Source: a virus. From it: DNA of 45,105 bases. Numbering within the stretch: position 1 is the first letter of the stretch; each line of letters starts with the position of its first letter. The notes below the pieces were generated by a model, which saw nothing but the letters and a program-made list of their open reading frames with translations, was not told the origin of the DNA and made no database searches. The DNA lies in IMG/VR virus record IMGVR_UViG_3300020020_000072, positions 1 through 45,105 of that record, one strand, 5' to 3'. Positions 679 to 11,091 of the stretch are shown here, one piece after another. A program made the translations under genes and the position numbers.

Positions 679-741
679 AGGGAGCATCTAGGAATCAGGT
701 ACCGGGGGGTCCGTATACCCGACTACAACTAGATGCTCCCT
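679..741 (-). other. Hairpin 1, 13-bp perfect arms
   Basis: AGGGAGCATCTAG (679-691) pairs perfectly with CTAGATGCTCCCT (729-741). The 37-nt loop carries a small inner stem (GGGT 707-710 with ACCC 717-720). Its downstream edge on the - strand lies 10 nt before the ATG of the 188-aa gene, so it may control that start. Confidence 0.75.
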
Positions 742-787
742 CTCGTGATGCGGTATGAGCCGGCCGTGGTAGACCAACCATCCGCAA

Positions 788-851
788 CTAGCTGTGTGTT
801 GATGTTGCCTGCCAGAACAACACTCCCTGGGAAAGGATGATACACAGCTAG
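788..851 (-). other. Hairpin 2, 10-bp arms, carries a leader-like motif
   Basis: CTAGCTGTGT (788-797) pairs with ACACAGCTAG (842-851). An inner stem TGTTG (803-807) / CAACA (818-822) lies in the loop. The loop also contains GGGAAAGGATGA at 829-840 on the + strand, the same 12-mer that precedes start codons in the - strand leaders at 6433-7674, but with no usable gene after it. Confidence 0.65.
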
Positions 852-884
852 ACCTTAGCACTAACCTTTAGACCTTTCAGCATG

Positions 885-965
885 CCGGTAGCCGTCCTGC
901 CTTATGCTCACACATTACTAGATCAGCCTTTACATAAGGGTCATAGCGGACTTCATGGCTACCGG
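885..965 (-). other. Hairpin 3, stepped stem
   Basis: CCGGTAGCC (885-893) pairs with GGCTACCGG (957-965). It continues after a one-sided bulge with GTCC (894-897) / GGAC (948-951), then CCTTATG (900-906) / CATAAGG (933-939). Three helices stacked in register are hard to explain by chance. Confidence 0.7.
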
Positions 966-1025
966 GGCTGAACCACGTTAGCGATTTTACGCCTCTGCCT
1001 ATGACTACGCATCGCTGCGAATTAG

Positions 1026-1118
1026 GTGGAGAGAGAAACTGTCTTCCCCTAGCCATGCTACCACAGGGTTAGGCGGTTCCCTTGTGACATGGTCCCGTGT
1101 AACAGTCTCTCTCTCCAC
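1026..1118 (-). other. Hairpin 4, 17-bp arms
   Basis: A 17-nt arm at 1026-1042 (GTGGAGAGAGAAACTGT) pairs with 1102-1118. The only imperfect pair, 1037/1107, is a G-U wobble in - strand RNA. Inner stems CCATG (1053-1057) / CATGG (1088-1092) and CACAGGG (1062-1068) / CCC-TTGTG (1079-1086, one bulge) extend it. This is the longest stem of the array. Confidence 0.75.
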
Positions 1119-1140
1119 GATCTTACACTTACCCCGAGGA

Positions 1141-1199
1141 TAGCTACGATAACCTAGTGTTGGGGATGAAGAGTGGGCTTTACTTCATCTGTGTAGCTA
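1141..1199 (-). other. Hairpin 5, nested
   Basis: TAGCTAC (1141-1147) pairs with GTAGCTA (1193-1199), enclosing GATGAAG (1165-1171) / CTTCATC (1183-1189). The flanks carry a direct repeat CCCCGAGG (1132-1139 and 1201-1208). Weaker than the other four. Confidence 0.45.
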
Positions 1200-1263
1200 C
1201 CCCCGAGGCACCGACACCCATGTTACACACTTCTCCAACACGCCGCAACCTGGACCCTTGTAT

Positions 1264-2079: not shown

Positions 2080-2237
2080 TACACCTTCTCCCGTTCTTCA
2101 TGTTCCTTAACCACATCCAAGAGGTCAGTCAGTGCATAGACCTGACCATCTCGGAAGATGTCACTATAGGAACCGAAGGAATGTACCTCTTCCTTTAGCT
2201 CAGCGATTCTAGCTCTCATCTCATCACTAAGCAGCAT
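2079..2237 (-). CDS. Unknown small helical protein (52 aa)
   Basis: I use ATG 2237 (MLLSDEMRARIAELKEEV) because GGAG lies about 10 nt upstream and the start overlaps the end of the DUF932 gene by 11 nt. A longer in-frame reading would be a shadow of that gene. The protein is charged and mostly helical, with no known domain. It is coupled to the 1885-2079 gene by TAATG. Confidence 0.65.
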   Translation of the reverse strand: MLLSDEMRARIAELKEEVHSFGSYSDIFRDGQVYALTDLLDVVKEHEEREKV

Positions 2238-3288
2238 TGGCCATCTCCAATATGATCTTGCTAGCTGTGATCTTGTTGTCCACAGTCTTACCGGGGAGCA
2301 AAGCCCGTTGTGCTCTCTGTCCACTGGCTTTGGCTGTGTTCTTGCCAACCTTCACGCCGCTAGCGTGATCCAGGTACTCAATGTAGGCGTTGTATGCGGC
2401 CCATCCGTTGCGGCCAACTAAGTCAATGTTGGTGTTGCCTTGGCCCTGATACATGAGGCGGATGTCTCCACGCTCCCGAGCCCTTCTTGTCTTAGCAACG
2501 TCACTTAGCTGCTCACTGATCGGATAGAAGTGATCAAGCAAGCTATCTAACGCCTTGTCACCATCAACTGCCAGCATCCGCTCAGCGTTAGCAACTGTCT
2601 CCTTCTCAACAGCACCGAGGTACCCCTGAGCAACAGCCATTTGCTCCATACGCTCATCAGCATTCCGAGTGTGCTTAGCCCTGATGATCTGAGTAGCACT
2701 CTTCATTGCCATCTTCACAGCGTTAGAACACGCAACACGAATCCCAACATACGAGATGAAGTTTGGCAATGTGCCATCAAAGGAAGTAGCGACTAGCAGC
2801 CCTCGCTCGATCGTGTCGGCAATCCCTCTCTCGTCAATGACAAGATCAGGGACTCGCACGTAAGCAAAGAATGCCGAGTTACCACTTCCCGCTCCGTATC
2901 CTCTAACCCCGTTCTCGACCACTCCATGAGCACCAAAGTTGCCAATGGTGTCGATATGTGAGTCGTCAGGGTTAAGGCCCACGAATTCGTAAGCCATTTC
3001 GAGAATCTCCCGGCGTTGCTTGATATTGAAACCGGGGGAGTGAACCCCTAGTGTGCCGTACTTATCTGACTTCACTGCCTGCCAGTCTGTAACCTCTTCA
3101 TACGTACCATCACTGTTACGTGTGTAGAGGACAGCAGGCTCAACTGTGTCGTCAGCACCGGCAAACTTAAGGGCAGCGTCCAAGCTAAGGTCCGGGATTT
3201 GAGTACCGAACCTATGAATGGGATGGCCTCGGGTGATGTTGGCAGCCATTAACACGTTACCCTCGTCAACAGAAAGAAGATCAGGCAT
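2227..3288 (-). CDS. DUF932 / TIGR03299 phage-plasmid protein (353 aa)
   Basis: The protein matches the DUF932 family (phage/plasmid-like protein TIGR03299) by its ordered motifs: an N-terminal GHPIHRFGTQIPDLSLDAAL segment, a central PDLVIDERGIADTIERGLL, and the family signature LVATSFDGTLPNF with IRVACSNAVKMA. The family occurs widely on phages and conjugative plasmids; its biochemical role is not established. Length of about 350 aa is usual for the family. The start ATG 3288 has GAAAGG about 9 nt upstream. Upstream is a 407-nt gene-free control region, so this is probably the first gene of a - strand unit continuing into 2079-2237 and 1885-2079. Confidence 0.88.
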   Translation of the reverse strand: MPDLLSVDEGNVLMAANITRGHPIHRFGTQIPDLSLDAALKFAGADDTVEPAVLYTRNSDGTYEEVTDWQAVKSDKYGTLGVHSPGFNIKQRREILEMAYEFVGLNPDDSHIDTIGNFGAHGVVENGVRGYGAGSGNSAFFAYVRVPDLVIDERGIADTIERGLLVATSFDGTLPNFISYVGIRVACSNAVKMAMKSATQIIRAKHTRNADERMEQMAVAQGYLGAVEKETVANAERMLAVDGDKALDSLLDHFYPISEQLSDVAKTRRARERGDIRLMYQGQGNTNIDLVGRNGWAAYNAYIEYLDHASGVKVGKNTAKASGQRAQRALLPGKTVDNKITASKIILEMANAA

Positions 3289-4373: not shown

Positions 4374-4531
4374 TAACGTCTCCCGACGTCGGCAGGCGGC
4401 TGAGGGTCACAGATACCGGGAGTGGAAGAGATAAATACCACTACCCCTTTCTGTGACGTTCCCCGGAGCATACACCCTAGCTGTGACACTGGCAAGCATG
4501 GGCTACCGTAATTACACCTCGGCTACCATGA
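4374..4531. promoter_or_regulatory. Upstream control region of the Cys-motif gene
   Basis: Contains a 10-bp palindrome CCGACGTCGG (4383-4392) next to the ribosome site. An inverted repeat GTCACAGA (4406-4413) / TCTGTGAC (4450-4457) encloses a second stem AGTGG (4421-4425) / CCACT (4438-4442), and another CTGTGAC lies at 4481-4487. An operator is likely; the palindrome lies where a repressor would block initiation. Confidence 0.45.
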
Positions 4532-4603
4532 AGTAAGGCCCAGTGATCGAGTGCTCGGAGTGCCACGTCACCACTCCTAGAAGCACCATCACTGGGCCTT
4601 ACT
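4532..4603 (-). terminator. 16-bp hairpin, probable terminator
   Basis: The arm at 4532-4547 pairs perfectly over 16 bp with 4588-4603. Inside, GTGC (4551-4554) / GCAC (4583-4586) and GGAGTG (4557-4562) / CACTCC (4572-4577) extend it. It starts three bases after the stop of the small membrane-protein gene (4606-4713), so terminating that - strand unit is its simplest role. It lacks a clean U-run, and its nested shape resembles the hairpins at 679-1199. Confidence 0.65.
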
Positions 4604-4605
4604 AT

Positions 4606-4713
4606 TTACCGGAACCACTTATGGTAGTAGGCGTAACTGTATTCAGCTACCCGGATGGACAGCCACAACACAATCAACACCTGCCACAAGAACCATAGTA
4701 ACTGGTCCATCAT
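4606..4713 (-). CDS. Small membrane peptide (35 aa)
   Basis: ATG at 4713 (a second ATG follows at once), one base after the stop of the 4715-4957 gene. AAAGGG stands about 6-8 nt upstream. The product starts MMDQLLWFLWQVLIVLWL, a single strongly hydrophobic segment (about residues 4-20), then an aromatic/basic tail (YYHKWFR). It is too short for routine gene calling. A single-pass inner-membrane peptide is predicted; function unknown. A 16-bp hairpin follows directly. Confidence 0.6.
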   Translation of the reverse strand: MMDQLLWFLWQVLIVLWLSIRVAEYSYAYYHKWFR

Positions 4714-4714
4714 G

Positions 4715-4957
4715 TCAACCCTTTCTTACGGCCTTGTTGCCGATTCCAGTTCCCTTCTTCCAGCTAACCTTCCCGGCCTTCCTGACGTGCTTACCGTTAC
4801 CCTGGCTTTGATTGGCCACACCTTTGTAAGTATGACCACCGGGACGGTATTTCTTCCTCAACACTATCCCTTCTTGCTTCCTGTCTTCGTAGTAGAGGCT
4901 CTCCCTGTTGCGAGCGCCGTCTCTTGCTGTCACATCAAGGTTCTTGACTAGGAACAT
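4715..4957 (-). CDS. Basic small protein (80 aa), unknown
   Basis: The ATG at 4957 is preceded by an excellent AAAGGAGAG site and overlaps the end of the HNH gene by 23 nt, so I prefer it to upstream ATGs at 4975 and 4996. The protein is very basic (a Lys/Arg/Gly-rich C-terminal half, ending KKGTGIGNKAVRKG), which suggests nucleic-acid binding. No domain recognised. Confidence 0.65.
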   Translation of the reverse strand: MFLVKNLDVTARDGARNRESLYYEDRKQEGIVLRKKYRPGGHTYKGVANQSQGNGKHVRKAGKVSWKKGTGIGNKAVRKG

Positions 4958-6049: not shown

Positions 6050-6247
6050 CTACTGGGAGTCTTTGTACTGTGGCTTATCCCTCACTCTGTCATACCAACG
6101 TTTCCATTCAGGAGTGAGTCTGTCGTCATCAACTAGCCGCGACTGGGCCTGTTGGTCTAGGTACTGACTCAGCTGTATAGGTAGCGTTGATGTTCTTGGG
6201 TGAAGATGTCCCCACGCTGCTAGACCCCGTATGGAATGGCCTAGCAA
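6050..6247 (-). CDS. Unknown small protein (about 65 aa)
   Basis: The open frame begins with TTG at 6247, overlapping the stop of the preceding gene, and contains no ATG. The C-terminal part (DDDRLTPEWKRWYDRVRDKP) looks like a genuine charged helical protein. The exact start is uncertain, and translation probably depends on coupling. No family recognised. A strong terminator follows. Confidence 0.45.
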   Translation of the reverse strand: MLGHSIRGLAAWGHLHPRTSTLPIQLSQYLDQQAQSRLVDDDRLTPEWKRWYDRVRDKPQYKDSQ

Positions 6248-6432
6248 GGCTCCTGACGTTCCGGAGCAGGAACTACCCCCGGCTCATCATCGGGAATGAA
6301 TCCCGGCTCCGAAATCTCGTCAGGGTACTCAGGGACTCCGAGGTCTGGCCAGACAGGCCAAGCCTCAAAGTCAGGGACCGTCTGAGGAATCTCAACCTCA
6401 TAGGAGTCCACTGTGGCTGTAGTAGTAGCCAT
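6241..6432 (-). CDS. Acidic Pro-rich protein (63 aa), unknown
   Basis: Begins MATTTATVDSYEVEIPQTVP and is rich in Pro, Glu and Asp, with repeated Trp/Pro (EAWPVWPDLGVPEYP); probably extended or disordered. The 18 bases directly before ATG (6433-6450, GGGAAAGGATGACAAACC on the - strand) are identical to those of the 6520-7017 gene, and a nested hairpin lies just upstream. Function unknown. Confidence 0.65.
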   Translation of the reverse strand: MATTTATVDSYEVEIPQTVPDFEAWPVWPDLGVPEYPDEISEPGFIPDDEPGVVPAPERQEPC

Positions 6433-6525
6433 GGTTTGTCATCCTTTCCCTTTGATAGCTAGTTGCTATCGGGAGACGCTCCCAACCTTTCGACTGGGAG
6501 CATCCCGAATGCCAGCTAACTATGT
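6433..6525 (-). promoter_or_regulatory. Hairpin leader with start-adjacent conserved element
   Basis: On the - strand a stepped hairpin precedes the element GGGAAAGGATGACAAACC (6433-6450), which touches the ATG at 6432. Its helices are GCTCCCA (6478-6484) / TGGGAGC (6495-6501), TCGGGA (6469-6474) / TCCCGA (6503-6508), and an outer arm pairing around 6454-6465 with 6515-6525 using a wobble possible only on the - strand. GGGAAAGG supplies the ribosome site. The leader resembles three others up to position 8277. Confidence 0.7.
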
Positions 6526-7017
6526 GGTGATCGTCTCTCCCATGGGTCCGGCCTCAGGAAGCGTCCGTGTCTCGCTCAACTGACGGAATGATGTCTCTCG
6601 CCAGTTCTCAACGCCGTTATACCCCTGAAGTAGTGAGTCCTCATCCTGACCGATGTGATGATGAGGATGGAACGGAGCCGCCCACGACATGTCAGGCTTG
6701 ACCCTAAAGAATTCCCGAGCCTCGTGAACTAGTTGGTCTAGCTCAAACTTGATGCAATGTTCCAAGATGGACCGCATCACATCAACCTCTGATGTGTAGA
6801 GGCTGCACTGAATGAGAGCAGTGTGTTCCATGGTGGTAGCCCGATCTTCGTAGCCAGGTGCGTTGTACGGGTTGGTTTCCCGTTGCGCCCAATGGATCGT
6901 GAGCCGCACTGTGTCACTCTCTTCATACCGTTGGTTGGTCGTAAACGACCAGTCCGGCTTATAGGTGAGCCGTTCCACCAGGTTGATAACGTGAGCGGCA
7001 GTCATCTGTGTAGCCAT
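6520..7017 (-). CDS. Unknown protein (165 aa)
   Basis: A soluble protein beginning MATQMTAAHVINLVERLTY, with a mid region of alternating strands (DTVRLTIHWAQRE, TALIQCSLYTSEV) and a helical His-rich part (FHPHHHIGQDEDS). No family recognised. It has its own leader with two hairpins and the same 18-base start-adjacent element as the 6241-6432 gene; the first three codons are also identical, so the leader and start look duplicated. Confidence 0.7.
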   Translation of the reverse strand: MATQMTAAHVINLVERLTYKPDWSFTTNQRYEESDTVRLTIHWAQRETNPYNAPGYEDRATTMEHTALIQCSLYTSEVDVMRSILEHCIKFELDQLVHEAREFFRVKPDMSWAAPFHPHHHIGQDEDSLLQGYNGVENWRETSFRQLSETRTLPEAGPMGETITT

Positions 7018-7102
7018 GGTTTGTCATCCTTTCCCAAAGTGATTGCTAACCGTTAGCAATCACTAGGAAAGGCATCACCCAAGTTGTATGAGTGATGCCC
7101 TT
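7018..7102 (-). promoter_or_regulatory. Double-hairpin leader with start-adjacent element
   Basis: GGGAAAGGATGACAAACC (7018-7035) abuts ATG 7017. Upstream is a near-perfect palindrome AGTGATTGCTAAC (7038-7050) / GTTAGCAATCACT (7052-7064) with a single central base. A second hairpin pairs 7068-7078 with 7092-7102; its only imperfect pair is G-U on the - strand. The hairpins may terminate upstream transcripts, stabilise the mRNA or be bound by a regulator. Confidence 0.7.
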
Positions 7103-7113
7103 CTAACTGACTG

Positions 7114-7200
7114 CTAGCTATGACTGTTGAGGTATCGCCCTAAGCCGATGATGGCTGTGATGCTGGCAAGTCCCCATGTGATGGCCAGGAGGACGCTCAC
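7114..7200 (-). CDS. Membrane peptide (28 aa)
   Basis: GTG at 7200 overlaps the stop of the preceding gene as GTGA, with TGAGG just upstream. The 28-residue product (start MSVLLAITWGLASITAII) is one hydrophobic segment followed by a short polar tail (GRYLNSHS). It sits directly before the next hairpin leader, the same position as the 31-aa membrane peptide at 7746-7841. Function unknown. Confidence 0.5.
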   Translation of the reverse strand: MSVLLAITWGLASITAIIGLGRYLNSHS

Positions 7201-7658
7201 GGGGCCTCAGGGGGGTCCGTGGCCACCAGGACCACGGACGCCAGGGGGGCACTGGCAGCTAGCTGGCGCACAGTGACTTCCTCACGCCAGAGCGCCCCGA
7301 GATAGGCATAGGCATCATCTCGCCACAGCCTGTCTACCTCTTGGTAGCCCTTAGACTGTCCGGTCCAGTAGTCCTTGACCCAATGCTGACGGTCCCTGAC
7401 AAGGAACCCTCGCTGTTGCGCCCAGCGGTCAAGCTTGTCAGATGACCAGTTGATGAAGTCATCAACGCTGACTAGATCGGAGTAGCTGCCCAACGTCTGT
7501 CCGATGATGCAATAGTCACCATTGGCCATGTTGAGGTAGTTAACCTCCACACGATTGAACCACTGCTCAAACCTGGGTTCCATGTCGGGGTTGGCGTCGA
7601 GGTACTCGACTCCCCTACGGACGGCCTTTGCGAGCATCTCTTTGTCACGCTTCCTCAT
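7197..7658 (-). CDS. Unknown protein (153 aa)
   Basis: Starts at ATG 7658 (MRKRDKEMLAKAVRRGVEYL), which has GGGAAAGGATGAGAAC directly before it; the longer frame to 7745 would run through the leader hairpin. A charged, Trp-rich protein with helical N-terminus and an Ala-rich end. No domain recognised. It is coupled to the 28-aa membrane peptide. Confidence 0.7.
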   Translation of the reverse strand: MRKRDKEMLAKAVRRGVEYLDANPDMEPRFEQWFNRVEVNYLNMANGDYCIIGQTLGSYSDLVSVDDFINWSSDKLDRWAQQRGFLVRDRQHWVKDYWTGQSKGYQEVDRLWRDDAYAYLGALWREEVTVRQLAASAPLASVVLVATDPPEAP

Positions 7659-7751
7659 GTTCTCATCCTTTCCCAATTGCCTAACTTGTCTAGCTAGGCA
7701 TGGCGCCCACCCAACACCATCAGCATTGGGTGGGCGATGGCCCATCTAGCT
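7659..7751 (-). promoter_or_regulatory. Hairpin leader with start-adjacent element
   Basis: GGGAAAGGATGAGAAC (7659-7674) abuts ATG 7658; it is the shared element shortened by two bases. Upstream GCCCACCCAA (7705-7714) pairs with TTGGGTGGGC (7726-7735), enclosed by AGCTAG (7692-7697) / CTAGCT (7746-7751), which reaches the stop codon of the membrane peptide gene. Confidence 0.7.
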
Positions 7752-7841
7752 CTTACGTCGGAGAGTGTAGATGAAAGCCAGTGCGACGTTAGATGCCGCA
7801 CCTACTAGCACCATGAGCATCGCTGCCTGGTTCACGTCCAT
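7746..7841 (-). CDS. Membrane peptide (31 aa)
   Basis: ATG 7841 overlaps the preceding stop as TAATG. The product (MDVNQAAMLMVLVGAASNVA at its start) has one transmembrane segment at about residues 5-25 and a basic end (LRRKS), giving an N-out/C-in orientation. It is too short for routine gene calling, but the coupled start and charge pattern support it. Function unknown. Confidence 0.55.
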   Translation of the reverse strand: MDVNQAAMLMVLVGAASNVALAFIYTLRRKS

Positions 7842-8143
7842 TAGGCATCGACCTTCAGGTGCTTACGGAGCCGCTCTGTCTGCTTTGTCACTTCCTCGAC
7901 CAGACGGGCGAACTGCCCATCGGTCACGAGGTGACGGTCGTTGTACTGGTGGCTCATGTCGGGCTGCCAGTACATGTCGCTGTTCCCATGGGGAGCGAAC
8001 TGATCGTTCGCCAGGACCACACTGACGATCCCCTTCGCATGATCGTGAAGATCGGTCAGTGCGTTCTCCCACACGATGATGCGGGCGATGCGACGAACGT
8101 CCTTGCTTGTCATCTTGTGCTCTTCCACCTTGAATTCACACAT
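7841..8143 (-). CDS. Unknown protein (100 aa)
   Basis: First gene of the left - strand unit. ATG 8143 (MCEFKVEEHKMTSKDVRRIA) has GGGAAAGGTAAGAGAACC immediately before it. A charged, His-containing protein with helical ends (ARLVEEVTKQTERLRKHLKV). No family recognised. Its stop is coupled by TAATG to the 31-aa membrane peptide. Confidence 0.7.
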   Translation of the reverse strand: MCEFKVEEHKMTSKDVRRIARIIVWENALTDLHDHAKGIVSVVLANDQFAPHGNSDMYWQPDMSHQYNDRHLVTDGQFARLVEEVTKQTERLRKHLKVDA

Positions 8144-8277
8144 GGTTCTCTTACCTTTCCCATGAGCCAGGATCATCAGAGTGTTGGTGGCTCGTTCCAA
8201 CACTTACAGCACCCCGACCTACATGTTTCGGGGCAGGCTCATGCCCACCCATCAACACATAGGTTGTGGGGTGCTGT
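8144..8277 (-). promoter_or_regulatory. Large structured leader of the left operon
   Basis: GGGAAAGGTAAGAGAACC (8144-8161) precedes ATG 8143. Upstream are hairpins AGTGTTGG (8180-8187) / CCAACACT (8197-8204) and ACAGCACCCC (8206-8215) / GGGGTGCTGT (8268-8277), the second enclosing about 50 nt. Same architecture as the leaders further left; the promoter itself must lie further right. Confidence 0.6.
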
Positions 8278-8665
8278 TTCACCTTCGGGAAAGGAAGGAT
8301 GATAATGGCGCCCTGCATTCCGATGCTTCGCAGCATTGGTTGAGCGGTTATCGCCATCGATTGTCAAGGAACGTTCCGGGGGGTGATTGACTTATTCCCC
8401 CGTTCTAACTCCATATGTCTAACTACTCCATACTACCAACGATCCTACATATATGCAACACGGGCGCAAACACAACATGAGTCGCAGGGGTGAGAATACG
8501 TGAGACCCTCTCATGGTTCGCCACAGGACTAACAACCCTAGTTCATCTATATTCTTCACCAATAGCGTGCCTAACGCTGCATTTACCCGCCCATACCACA
8601 TACCTCATCTTATATCTATGAATAACACAGACACATACATGATAAGCGGCAGCACACGCAGCATG

Positions 8666-8818: not shown

Positions 8819-9094
8819 ATGCCTGAGCCTCTCCGACTCTTTCTCGATTCGTCTTTAGCTGCTGATCCCACAGATTTAGACGAAGGTGAGATTATTAGTG
8901 ACGCCATGGTCATATACAGGATCAGCAAAGTGGCCGATGACGAAGATGGAAGCCTCAACGGGATAAGCGAAAGATACAACTACACCGTTACGCCCGGCAT
9001 GAACCTCGCCATGGCCTACGGGATGATGCAAATCACCCTCGAAACCCTCGGCAACTACTACTGGGCCTGCCTCAACCAAGAAGAAGACGACTAA
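8819..9094 (+). CDS. Unknown small protein preceding terminase (91 aa)
   Basis: First gene of the structural block. Acidic, with a helical Met-rich segment (MNLAMAYGMMQITLETLGNY) near the C-terminus. A small terminase subunit would be expected at this place, but no DNA-binding motif is visible, so I do not assign that role. The stop overlaps the terminase start as TAATG. The ribosome site is loose (AAAGGG and AGGG upstream). Confidence 0.7.
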   Translation: MPEPLRLFLDSSLAADPTDLDEGEIISDAMVIYRISKVADDEDGSLNGISERYNYTVTPGMNLAMAYGMMQITLETLGNYYWACLNQEEDD

Positions 9095-11091
9095 TGCCAG
9101 GCCACAAGACAGCCACACCCCAAGAACGAGACAAGTACAAGCTGCTCAGACTCGGGGGTATGACCCAAACCGAAGCCTCAAAGCAAGTAGACAAGAGTCC
9201 ATCATGGGGCAAGAAGATGGACAGGGAGATGGGGCTACGAGACGCCGTCAAACAAGCCCGCTACTACAACCCCGAAGGGGAAATCAGGCCCCTTAAGCCC
9301 TACGAGCTATCCCCAGTAGCCAAAGACTGCCTCGAAGACTTCGGGCGGTTCAGGGCACGGATGTTCGGGCGCATCTCCTCACCCTGGCAGGAGGAAGCCG
9401 CAAACATTGTTAGGACCAAACTGGCAACCCCTTACAAGGAGTTTGGGGTAGTCAACGCCCCGCCTGGTGGCGGCAAGTCGACCCTCTTCACACACGACAT
9501 CCCGGCGTGGCTGACAGCCCGATCCAGAACTTTGAGAGGGTTCATTGGGTCATCGACACAGAACATGGCTGGGAACTATACGTTCCGACTCCGTAACACT
9601 CTTGCCCGTACAGTCCCCCCGGAAGCTAAGAGTGAAGACTTAGCACTTGGCCTAGCACTCGACGCTGAGTCCACGATGACAAGGGACTACGGCATCTTCC
9701 GTCCTGATCCCACTCTTGGTGCCCCGTGGACAAGGTTCTTCTTCACGGTCGCACAGTATGGTGAGATATCGATTGATGAGAAGGAATCCACCTGGGCAGC
9801 GTTCGGTAAGGACACCGGGTTCCTGGGTTACCGTGTCCATATCATCGTGTGGGATGACCTGTTCCGGCGTGACGACATGCTCGGGCAGAATAAGGCTGAG
9901 AAGCTAGAGAAGTTCTACAACTGGTACGACGATGAAGCGGAGACTCGTCTAGAGCCTGGTGGCCTCTTACTTCTACAGGGGCAGCGGTTGGGTGCCGATG
10001 ACATCTACGGCTACAACTTGGCGAAGCGCACGTACGCTGATGATGAAGAGGATGTGGAACTGTTCGAGTTGGGAGAGGAACAAGAACCCACTGAGCGCAA
10101 GTATTTCCATGTGGTGTTCAAGGCCCACTATGAGGAACTGTGCGATGCCGCTATGGACCCGCACGTTCACTCCCGCAAGGCCAAGCCATACGACCCCGCT
10201 AACCCTCTTAACGAACGTGGTCATGCTCCTTGTCTGCTGGACCCTTCTCGTCTCCCGTATCGAGAACTACGGGCGCTGATGAACCGGCCGACATCTAATT
10301 TCAAGGTCGTGTACCAGCAGGAAGATGTTGACCCGGCAGACGCTTTGGTCCCTAAATTCTATATCGATGGTGGCAGCTATGAGGGTCACGAATACGATGG
10401 CTGTTGGGATGATGACCGGGGGCCTAATGAACTTCCTACTATCCTAACTAAGCCCCTTAAGAACACGGTCATCAAGTCGATCATTACAGCGGACCCTTCC
10501 CCGTCCAAGTTCTGGGCTGTCCAATGGTGGGTGTATGTGCAACTACCAACCCAGGAACGTCTGATGGGGACCCGGTACCTAATCAACCAAGTGTTCACGC
10601 CTATGGGTGCTAATGACCTTCTTGACTTCGACACGGACACGATGGAGTGGGAAGGTCTACTGGTCCAGTGGAAGAATGCTGCGGAACATCTCGGTATCCC
10701 GATCGACTACTTTATCCTGGAAGTCAATGCTGCTCAGAAGTTCATTCAGCAGTACAAGTTCTTCAAGAAGTGGATGAAGGATAGTAACATCAAGATAAAG
10801 TCACACCATACTCATATCAACAAGCTTGACTCCAAGATGGGTGTTACAACTATCCGTAGCCAGTACGAGTATGGCCGTGTTAGTCTCCCTGGCAATCGGG
10901 AAGGTCGTCACGTTTCCGAACCTCTTTACAAGCAGGTCACCACTTATCCGGACGCCATGTACGATGACTGTGTGATGGCACATTGGTTCCTTGAATACCA
11001 GCTACAGTACATCGTGAAGCGCAAGAAGGTTAAGAACAGCCTTGGCAAGGACATGCCAGCTTGGCTTAACAGGGAGCCATCGTACGCATGA
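9094..11091 (+). CDS. terL: Terminase large subunit (665 aa)
   Basis: The DNA-packaging motor: the ATPase drives DNA into the procapsid and the nuclease cuts concatemers. Walker A is NAPPGGGKST (121-130), Walker B VHIIVWDDL (248-256). An RNase-H-like nuclease follows, with a likely first acidic residue in IITADPSPS (about 459-467) and a last one in PDAMYDDCVMAH near the C-terminus. The N-terminal 60 residues hold a helix-turn-helix-like segment (MTQTEASKQVDKSPSWGKKM), which could give DNA recognition normally supplied by the small subunit. Its end overlaps the portal start as ATGA. Confidence 0.92.
   Translation: MPGHKTATPQERDKYKLLRLGGMTQTEASKQVDKSPSWGKKMDREMGLRDAVKQARYYNPEGEIRPLKPYELSPVAKDCLEDFGRFRARMFGRISSPWQEEAANIVRTKLATPYKEFGVVNAPPGGGKSTLFTHDIPAWLTARSRTLRGFIGSSTQNMAGNYTFRLRNTLARTVPPEAKSEDLALGLALDAESTMTRDYGIFRPDPTLGAPWTRFFFTVAQYGEISIDEKESTWAAFGKDTGFLGYRVHIIVWDDLFRRDDMLGQNKAEKLEKFYNWYDDEAETRLEPGGLLLLQGQRLGADDIYGYNLAKRTYADDEEDVELFELGEEQEPTERKYFHVVFKAHYEELCDAAMDPHVHSRKAKPYDPANPLNERGHAPCLLDPSRLPYRELRALMNRPTSNFKVVYQQEDVDPADALVPKFYIDGGSYEGHEYDGCWDDDRGPNELPTILTKPLKNTVIKSIITADPSPSKFWAVQWWVYVQLPTQERLMGTRYLINQVFTPMGANDLLDFDTDTMEWEGLLVQWKNAAEHLGIPIDYFILEVNAAQKFIQQYKFFKKWMKDSNIKIKSHHTHINKLDSKMGVTTIRSQYEYGRVSLPGNREGRHVSEPLYKQVTTYPDAMYDDCVMAHWFLEYQLQYIVKRKKVKNSLGKDMPAWLNREPSYA

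Follow-up and report, generated by a model that had tools for sequence, protein, structure and literature searches.

Genomic context of the hairpin array

The window, that is, the whole stretch of DNA analyzed here, is a 45,105-base virus sequence from IMG/VR. Its rightward arm is structural, with the terminase at 9094 and the portal at 11088; the other arm runs leftward. A gene-free stretch filled by an array of large hairpins separates two genes of the leftward strand, a conserved one that ends at 1264 and one at 102 to 638. The first-pass annotation had taken the gene downstream of the array for a 188-aa gene that starts at ATG 668 and lacks a ribosome site. The proteins of relatives instead align with its product from GTG 638, which is preceded by a Shine-Dalgarno-like GAAGGGAA at 653 to 646; this is hence the likely start, and the length is 178 aa. 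No Pfam or PHROG match was found for the 178-aa protein. The next gene overlaps the end of the 178-aa gene, and its counterpart in one of the relatives described below (G002) is a DinG/XPD-like helicase (Helicase_C_2, E 3e-22; phrog_2488, E 1e-82).

None of the small reading frames inside the array is conserved, and the conserved frames of the relatives end at the flanking genes. Two overlapping minus-strand frames at 1264 to 1620 and 1391 to 1705 are both conserved in G002 (56% and 49% identity) and are possibly overlapping genes. Further along the same strand, the DUF932 gene at 2227 to 3288 is about 70% identical in two relatives, a conservation far above that of its neighbors.

Folding and strand of the array

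On the minus strand, positions 669 to 1212 fold with a predicted energy of -236 kcal/mol (z -6.9), which none of 100 shuffled sequences equaled; the plus strand reaches -190 kcal/mol with a weak z of -2.5, and coding controls from the minus strand of the same phage range from z +0.1 to -1.0. The departures of the stems from perfect pairing point to the same strand, for under strand-symmetric scoring with four related arrays pooled they amount on the minus strand to 12 G-U versus 3 A-C (p 0.035). A minus-strand RNA, earlier suggested from a single G-U pair in one stem, is thus supported. The five nested inverted repeats of the first-pass annotation are present, and a smaller one at 750 to 785 can be added to them. 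Taken as sequence predictions, these observations suggest that the minus strand encodes a structured RNA of about 540 nt with five to seven hairpins. A role at the DNA level, as a replication origin or cruciform, was set aside on account of the strand bias in folding and the G-U pairs. No tRNA or tmRNA was detected.

Read 5' to 3' on the minus strand, hairpin 1 (1132 to 1208) has arms of 16 nt at 1132 to 1147 and 1193 to 1208 (81% paired) and an inner GAUGAAG/CUUCAUC helix; it scores z -5.0 on the minus and -1.65 on the plus strand, and its stem holds three G-U pairs and no A-C. Hairpin 2 (1026 to 1118; z -6.0) is built on a stem of 17 to 18 bp, with 17-nt arms at 1026 to 1042 and 1102 to 1118 (94%) and an inner CCAUG/CAUGG helix. 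Hairpin 3 (885 to 965) has fully paired 9-nt arms at 885 to 893 and 957 to 965 and combines a CCGGUAGCC/GGCUACCGG stem with inner helices, the region 879 to 971 scoring z -2.3 on the minus strand. The hairpin at 788 to 851 (z -3.6), which is central to what follows, consists of a 10-bp outer stem (arms 788 to 797 and 842 to 851, 100%), an exposed stretch, and an inner hairpin on the 3' side. Between it and the last hairpin lies a small hairpin at 749 to 785 (GCGGAUGG...CCGC; z -3.3 on the minus and +0.2 on the plus strand). The last hairpin (675 to 745; z -8.2), with 17-nt arms at 675 to 691 and 729 to 745 (94%) and a GGGAG/CUCCC core, directly precedes the 178-aa gene. The first-pass annotation had offered two readings of the array, namely, an undescribed structured phage RNA or a leader of exceptional length for a gene lacking a ribosome site; the former is supported, as a minus-strand RNA with a probable regulatory role, and the latter is unsupported, since a Shine-Dalgarno site lies between the last hairpin and the 178-aa gene.

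A composition-corrected scan of the window marks several further structured gaps, and the array is hence not the sole structured gap in this phage. One gene-free gap, at 4374 to 4934, folds well above shuffled sequences (z -6.0 on the minus strand) and holds, at 4532 to 4603, an inverted repeat of 16 perfectly matched bp that encloses an elaborate interior of 40 nt. A hairpin at 1822 to 1868 (AAGGCUCCCCGUCUAG...GAUGGGGAGCCUU) has a counterpart at the same position in L002 and L003.

Related arrays

Three relatives, defined as IMG/VR contigs that carry the pre-array gene, an array, and the 178-aa gene, were recovered: G001 (IMGVR_UViG_3300050500_000062; L013, L014), G002 (3300009147_000104; L015, L016), and G003 (3300037761_000177; L049). 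The identity of the 178-aa protein across them is 35 to 50%, and the array sits at the identical site, between the same two genes, in all three. The stem sequences are almost unrelated; most differ from phage to phage, and the number of hairpins varies as well. The gap folds with z -6.4 and an energy of -218 in G001, where the reverse strand is equally significant (z -7.2) but of weaker energy (-191); the corresponding z values are -4.6 in G002 (reverse strand, -1.6) and -3.1 in G003 (reverse strand, -1.7).

Two hairpins can be matched by position across the four phages, the last one and the next-to-last large one, and in both the stems covary. The last hairpin retains an invariant GGGAG/CUCCC core, while its apical pairs covary with up to four pair types per position. 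In the next-to-last large hairpin the outer stem is kept with a different sequence, each of ten positions showing two to four pair types; as the stems were picked for pairing, this count illustrates change with pairing retained and is not a blind test.

In DNA and protein searches of named phages, neither the array nor the 178-aa protein nor the terminase had a relative. A pattern scan of genome contigs with a motif of the 178-aa protein gave 20 chance matches and no homologue, and wider viral scans with DUF932, 118-aa, terminase, and helicase alignments found no additional array.

A loop antisense to a shared ribosome-binding site

The most informative feature of the array is a loop that is antisense to a ribosome-binding site (RBS) common to genes 5 to 7 kb away. 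The element, UCAUCCUUUCCCA at 840 to 828 on the minus strand, occupies the internal loop of hairpin 788 to 851 and is antisense over 12 to 13 nt to GGGAAAGGAUGA, the RBS that serves three of the first four leftward genes (those starting at 7658, 7017, and 6432). The exact complement of the loop, GGGAAAGGAUGA, occurs at three other sites on the minus strand of the genome, each 4 to 7 nt 5' of an ATG. The longest matches, of 13 nt, are to UGGGAAAGGAUGA at 7663 to 7675, upstream of gene 7197 to 7658, and at 7024 to 7036, upstream of gene 6520 to 7017, with a predicted net pairing of -13.3 and -12.9 kcal/mol, respectively; the 12-nt match to GGGAAAGGAUGA at 6439 to 6450, upstream of gene 6241 to 6432, has a predicted net of -14.4. 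The first leftward gene (7841 to 8143) bears a variant, UGGGAAAGG at 8154 to 8162, with a 9-nt match. Separately from the loop, the array stretch AGCUAGUUGC at 793 to 784 is antisense over 10 nt to 6466 to 6457 in the leader of the gene starting at 6432, in the order that two-site pairing would take; this second match was not seen in the relatives.

The relatives carry the same arrangement. In G001 the loop is identical to that of the window, and the motif lies 5' of four genes (8070, 7536, 6939, and 6382), including the orthologue of gene 7841 to 8143 (start 8070), which bears the full motif; hence, in two phages three to four genes have an RBS that the loop fits. In G002 loop and RBS are both altered relative to the window, in step: the loop reads ACCCUCCCAGGU, and the RBSs read ACCUGGGAGGGU (gene 8320) and CCUGGGAGGG (gene 9309). 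In G003 the loop UCAUCCUUCCC faces GGGAAGGAUGA (gene 17006) and GGAAGGAUGAAAG (gene 16281). Gene 6520 to 7017, a member of phrog_1540 (unknown function), is the target for which an orthologue was found in all four phages, the other three being genes 6939 (G001), 8320 (G002), and 17006 (G003), at 24 to 40% identity.

Specificity of the match

Against positions -25 to -1 of this orthologous gene, the longest antisense run of the array is 13, 13, 12, and 11 nt in the window, G001, G002, and G003, respectively. Shuffled arrays give a mean run of about 6.3 and attain the observed value in 1, 0, 0, and 2 of 1,000 cases, in the same order; the four genomes represent three independent motif states, the motif being identical in the window and G001, and any CU-rich loop will match in part, as the motif includes the Shine-Dalgarno core. 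When arrays and targets are swapped among phages, each array finds its longest run on the RBS of its own phage, those of the window and G001 being interchangeable by virtue of their shared motif. The G002 array pairs over 12 nt with its own RBS versus 6 to 8 nt with foreign ones, and foreign arrays manage 6 to 7 nt on the G002 RBS. For pairing with the orthologous target, the predicted net energy is -12.9, -11.8, -12.0, and -10.8 kcal/mol (window, G001, G002, and G003); ranked by accessibility, the anti-RBS element falls within the top 10, 8, 19, and 3% of the respective arrays.

Among 1,348 candidate starts in the window ranked by duplex energy, the top three are the genes starting at 7658, 7017, and 6432. 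The motif is limited to the first four leftward genes of the window (with the 9-nt variant at 8143) and of G001; G002 has it at two of its first leftward genes, and the later leftward genes have different ribosome sites. The correspondence is less clear-cut in places. Duplex energy alone does not place the targets first in G003; in G002 the target 9309 is buried within its own leader (net -4.3), and an extra 12-nt match, which may be due to chance, lies 5' of the rightward gene 16633.

Just one of the roughly six hairpins is explained by these matches. Parts of the other hairpins show only chance-level antisense to early gene starts, an example being the 9-nt match of hairpin 3 to CAUGGCUAC, which occurs at two starts. 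They probably serve in the protection or processing of the RNA or present loops for further targets.

Leaders of the first leftward genes

Upstream of each gene with the common RBS lie two hairpins, one long and perfect and the other short (7052 to 7118, 6457 to 6510, and 7690 to 7750, minus strand). Since these recur together with the common RBS in the first gene block, we consider them a leader cassette held in common. For the gene starting at 7017, two mutually exclusive folds of the leader seem possible. The leader of the first leftward gene contains a second anti-RBS, UCAUCCUUCCUUUCCC at 8302 to 8287 on the minus strand, placed in cis and predicted to pair with the gene's own RBS across two hairpins, and G001 and G002 share this cis arrangement. 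Thus, antisense control of the first-block RBS seems to be used in cis too, and this leader (8130 to 8420, minus strand) might, as modeled, be a translational switch of its own.

A proposed antisense regulator of the early block

From the array, its strand, its structural conservation, the antisense match, and the joint change in four phages, all of which can be read from the sequences themselves, we propose that the array is probably a trans-acting antisense RNA, encoded on the same strand as its targets, that represses the earliest gene block. A minus-strand RNA with a row of long closed hairpins would be transcribed as part of the leftward unit, ahead of the 178-aa gene, and would persist as a stable molecule, perhaps after processing. 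Its next-to-last large hairpin would expose the antisense stretch in the internal loop, and this would pair in trans inside the cell, over 11 to 13 contiguous pairs, with the RBS common to the first leftward genes and so block their translation. Judging from gene order, expression probably begins with the leftward block. A transcript begun at the head of the leftward unit would cover the early genes and then the array; because the array follows the early genes on the same strand, at a distance of about 6 kb, its RNA would appear only once transcription has crossed the first block. Negative feedback of this kind would be delayed and would bring the immediate-early phase to an end. We consider it likely that the early RBS block is paired with, and repressed by, the loop.

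It is unlikely, in our view, that the common 12-mer is an operator or another protein-binding site in DNA and that the correspondence between array and targets reflects co-evolution with one DNA-binding protein. A single protein would likewise account for the 12-mer at several sites and for the joint change in G002; however, in every target the 12-mer lies 4 to 7 nt before the start codon and includes the Shine-Dalgarno core, it is not palindromic, and its array copy sits in the loop of a conserved hairpin in an array whose stems favor RNA-type G-U pairs on one strand. The same pairing evidence would hold if control ran in reverse, with early mRNAs pairing with the loop and remodeling the leader, and the 178-aa gene and the helicase responding, the array thus acting as a sponge or sensor. 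As the leader of the 178-aa gene, whose end overlaps the start of the DinG-like helicase gene, the array is well placed for this, and the G001 anti-RBS is partly able to pair with CCCGUGGG, just 5' of the 178-aa gene. Yet the RBS of that gene lies beyond the last stable hairpin, its closure by the array is not predicted, and blocking of the early RBS is the simpler outcome, all of which make the reverse direction improbable. Very unlikely is a purely structural leader, with hairpins for stability or RNase III processing and an antisense match that is a by-product of CU-rich stems: long hairpins 5' of several early genes in these phages and the invariant GGGAG/CUCCC core of the last hairpin would fit it, but not the 11- to 13-nt runs to orthologous RBSs in four phages, which come from the matching hairpin's loop and show joint changes.

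Returning to repression by the antisense loop, a serious, if more tentative, possibility that falls a little short of probable is that these elements constitute an RNA-held regulon, in which a leader cassette marks the first leftward genes, one downstream loop on the same strand silences the block, and loop and cassette drift together. Were this so, each lineage would have its own RNA "code," insulated from its relatives, and the other hairpins would be further antisense loops. The timing of phage gene expression is usually explained via proteins and promoters; here, an RNA would silence the first-expressed block through one RBS. If true, this would offer, in phages that only metagenomes have revealed, a direct example of trans RNA-RNA co-evolution that is open to testing. 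A general search also suggests itself, for gene-free hairpin arrays with loops antisense to ribosome sites repeated in the same genome.

Comparison with known phage RNAs

A partial search of the literature returned no published phage RNA of the same design. As in trans-acting phage small RNAs, complementarity to the translation starts of the targets is present and, by the swap matrix, is kept by joint change. In extent the array recalls GOLLD and ROOL, which comprise several hundred nucleotides of dense structure in gene-free phage stretches; like them, it is several hundred nucleotides long, densely structured, and located in a gene-free phage stretch. Unlike in those RNAs, its stems diverge fast and its hairpin number differs between relatives. 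Rfam searches, both at gathering thresholds and in permissive mode, gave no credible hit: no match to GOLLD, ROOL, or other Rfam phage RNAs was obtained in the window, in the region 550 to 1350 (E up to 10, with chance matches to unrelated families only), or in the relatives.

The antisense RNAs sar and OOP pair with the mRNA of the gene that they overlap, ant in the case of sar and cII in that of OOP. The array RNA, unlike these, would be encoded in trans to its targets, which lie 5 to 7 kb away on the same strand. In purpose it would resemble P22 sar and lambda OOP, which are phage antisense RNAs that lower the expression of phage genes (review PMC12197685).

The nearest parallel is C4, an RNA of about 77 nt with three stem-loops that RNase P releases from a longer transcript of phages P1 and P7; its loops pair with phage mRNA and thereby cover an RBS (PMC5320573). 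The Rfam covariance model of C4 gives no match in the window, in the regions 550 to 1350 (E up to 10) and 6400 to 8450 (E up to 5), or in the relatives. As in C4, a loop is complementary to a phage RBS, here over 11 to 13 nt in four phages, and the action would be on the phage's own genes. For the second loop of C4, which pairs upstream of the RBS for specificity, the 10-nt match of 793 to 784 to the leader of the gene starting at 6432 is a possible counterpart, seen in the window and not in the relatives. The array differs in that the loop is carried by a 540-nt array of five to seven hairpins, in that there are several targets with a common cassette, and in that these targets lie upstream in the same direction.
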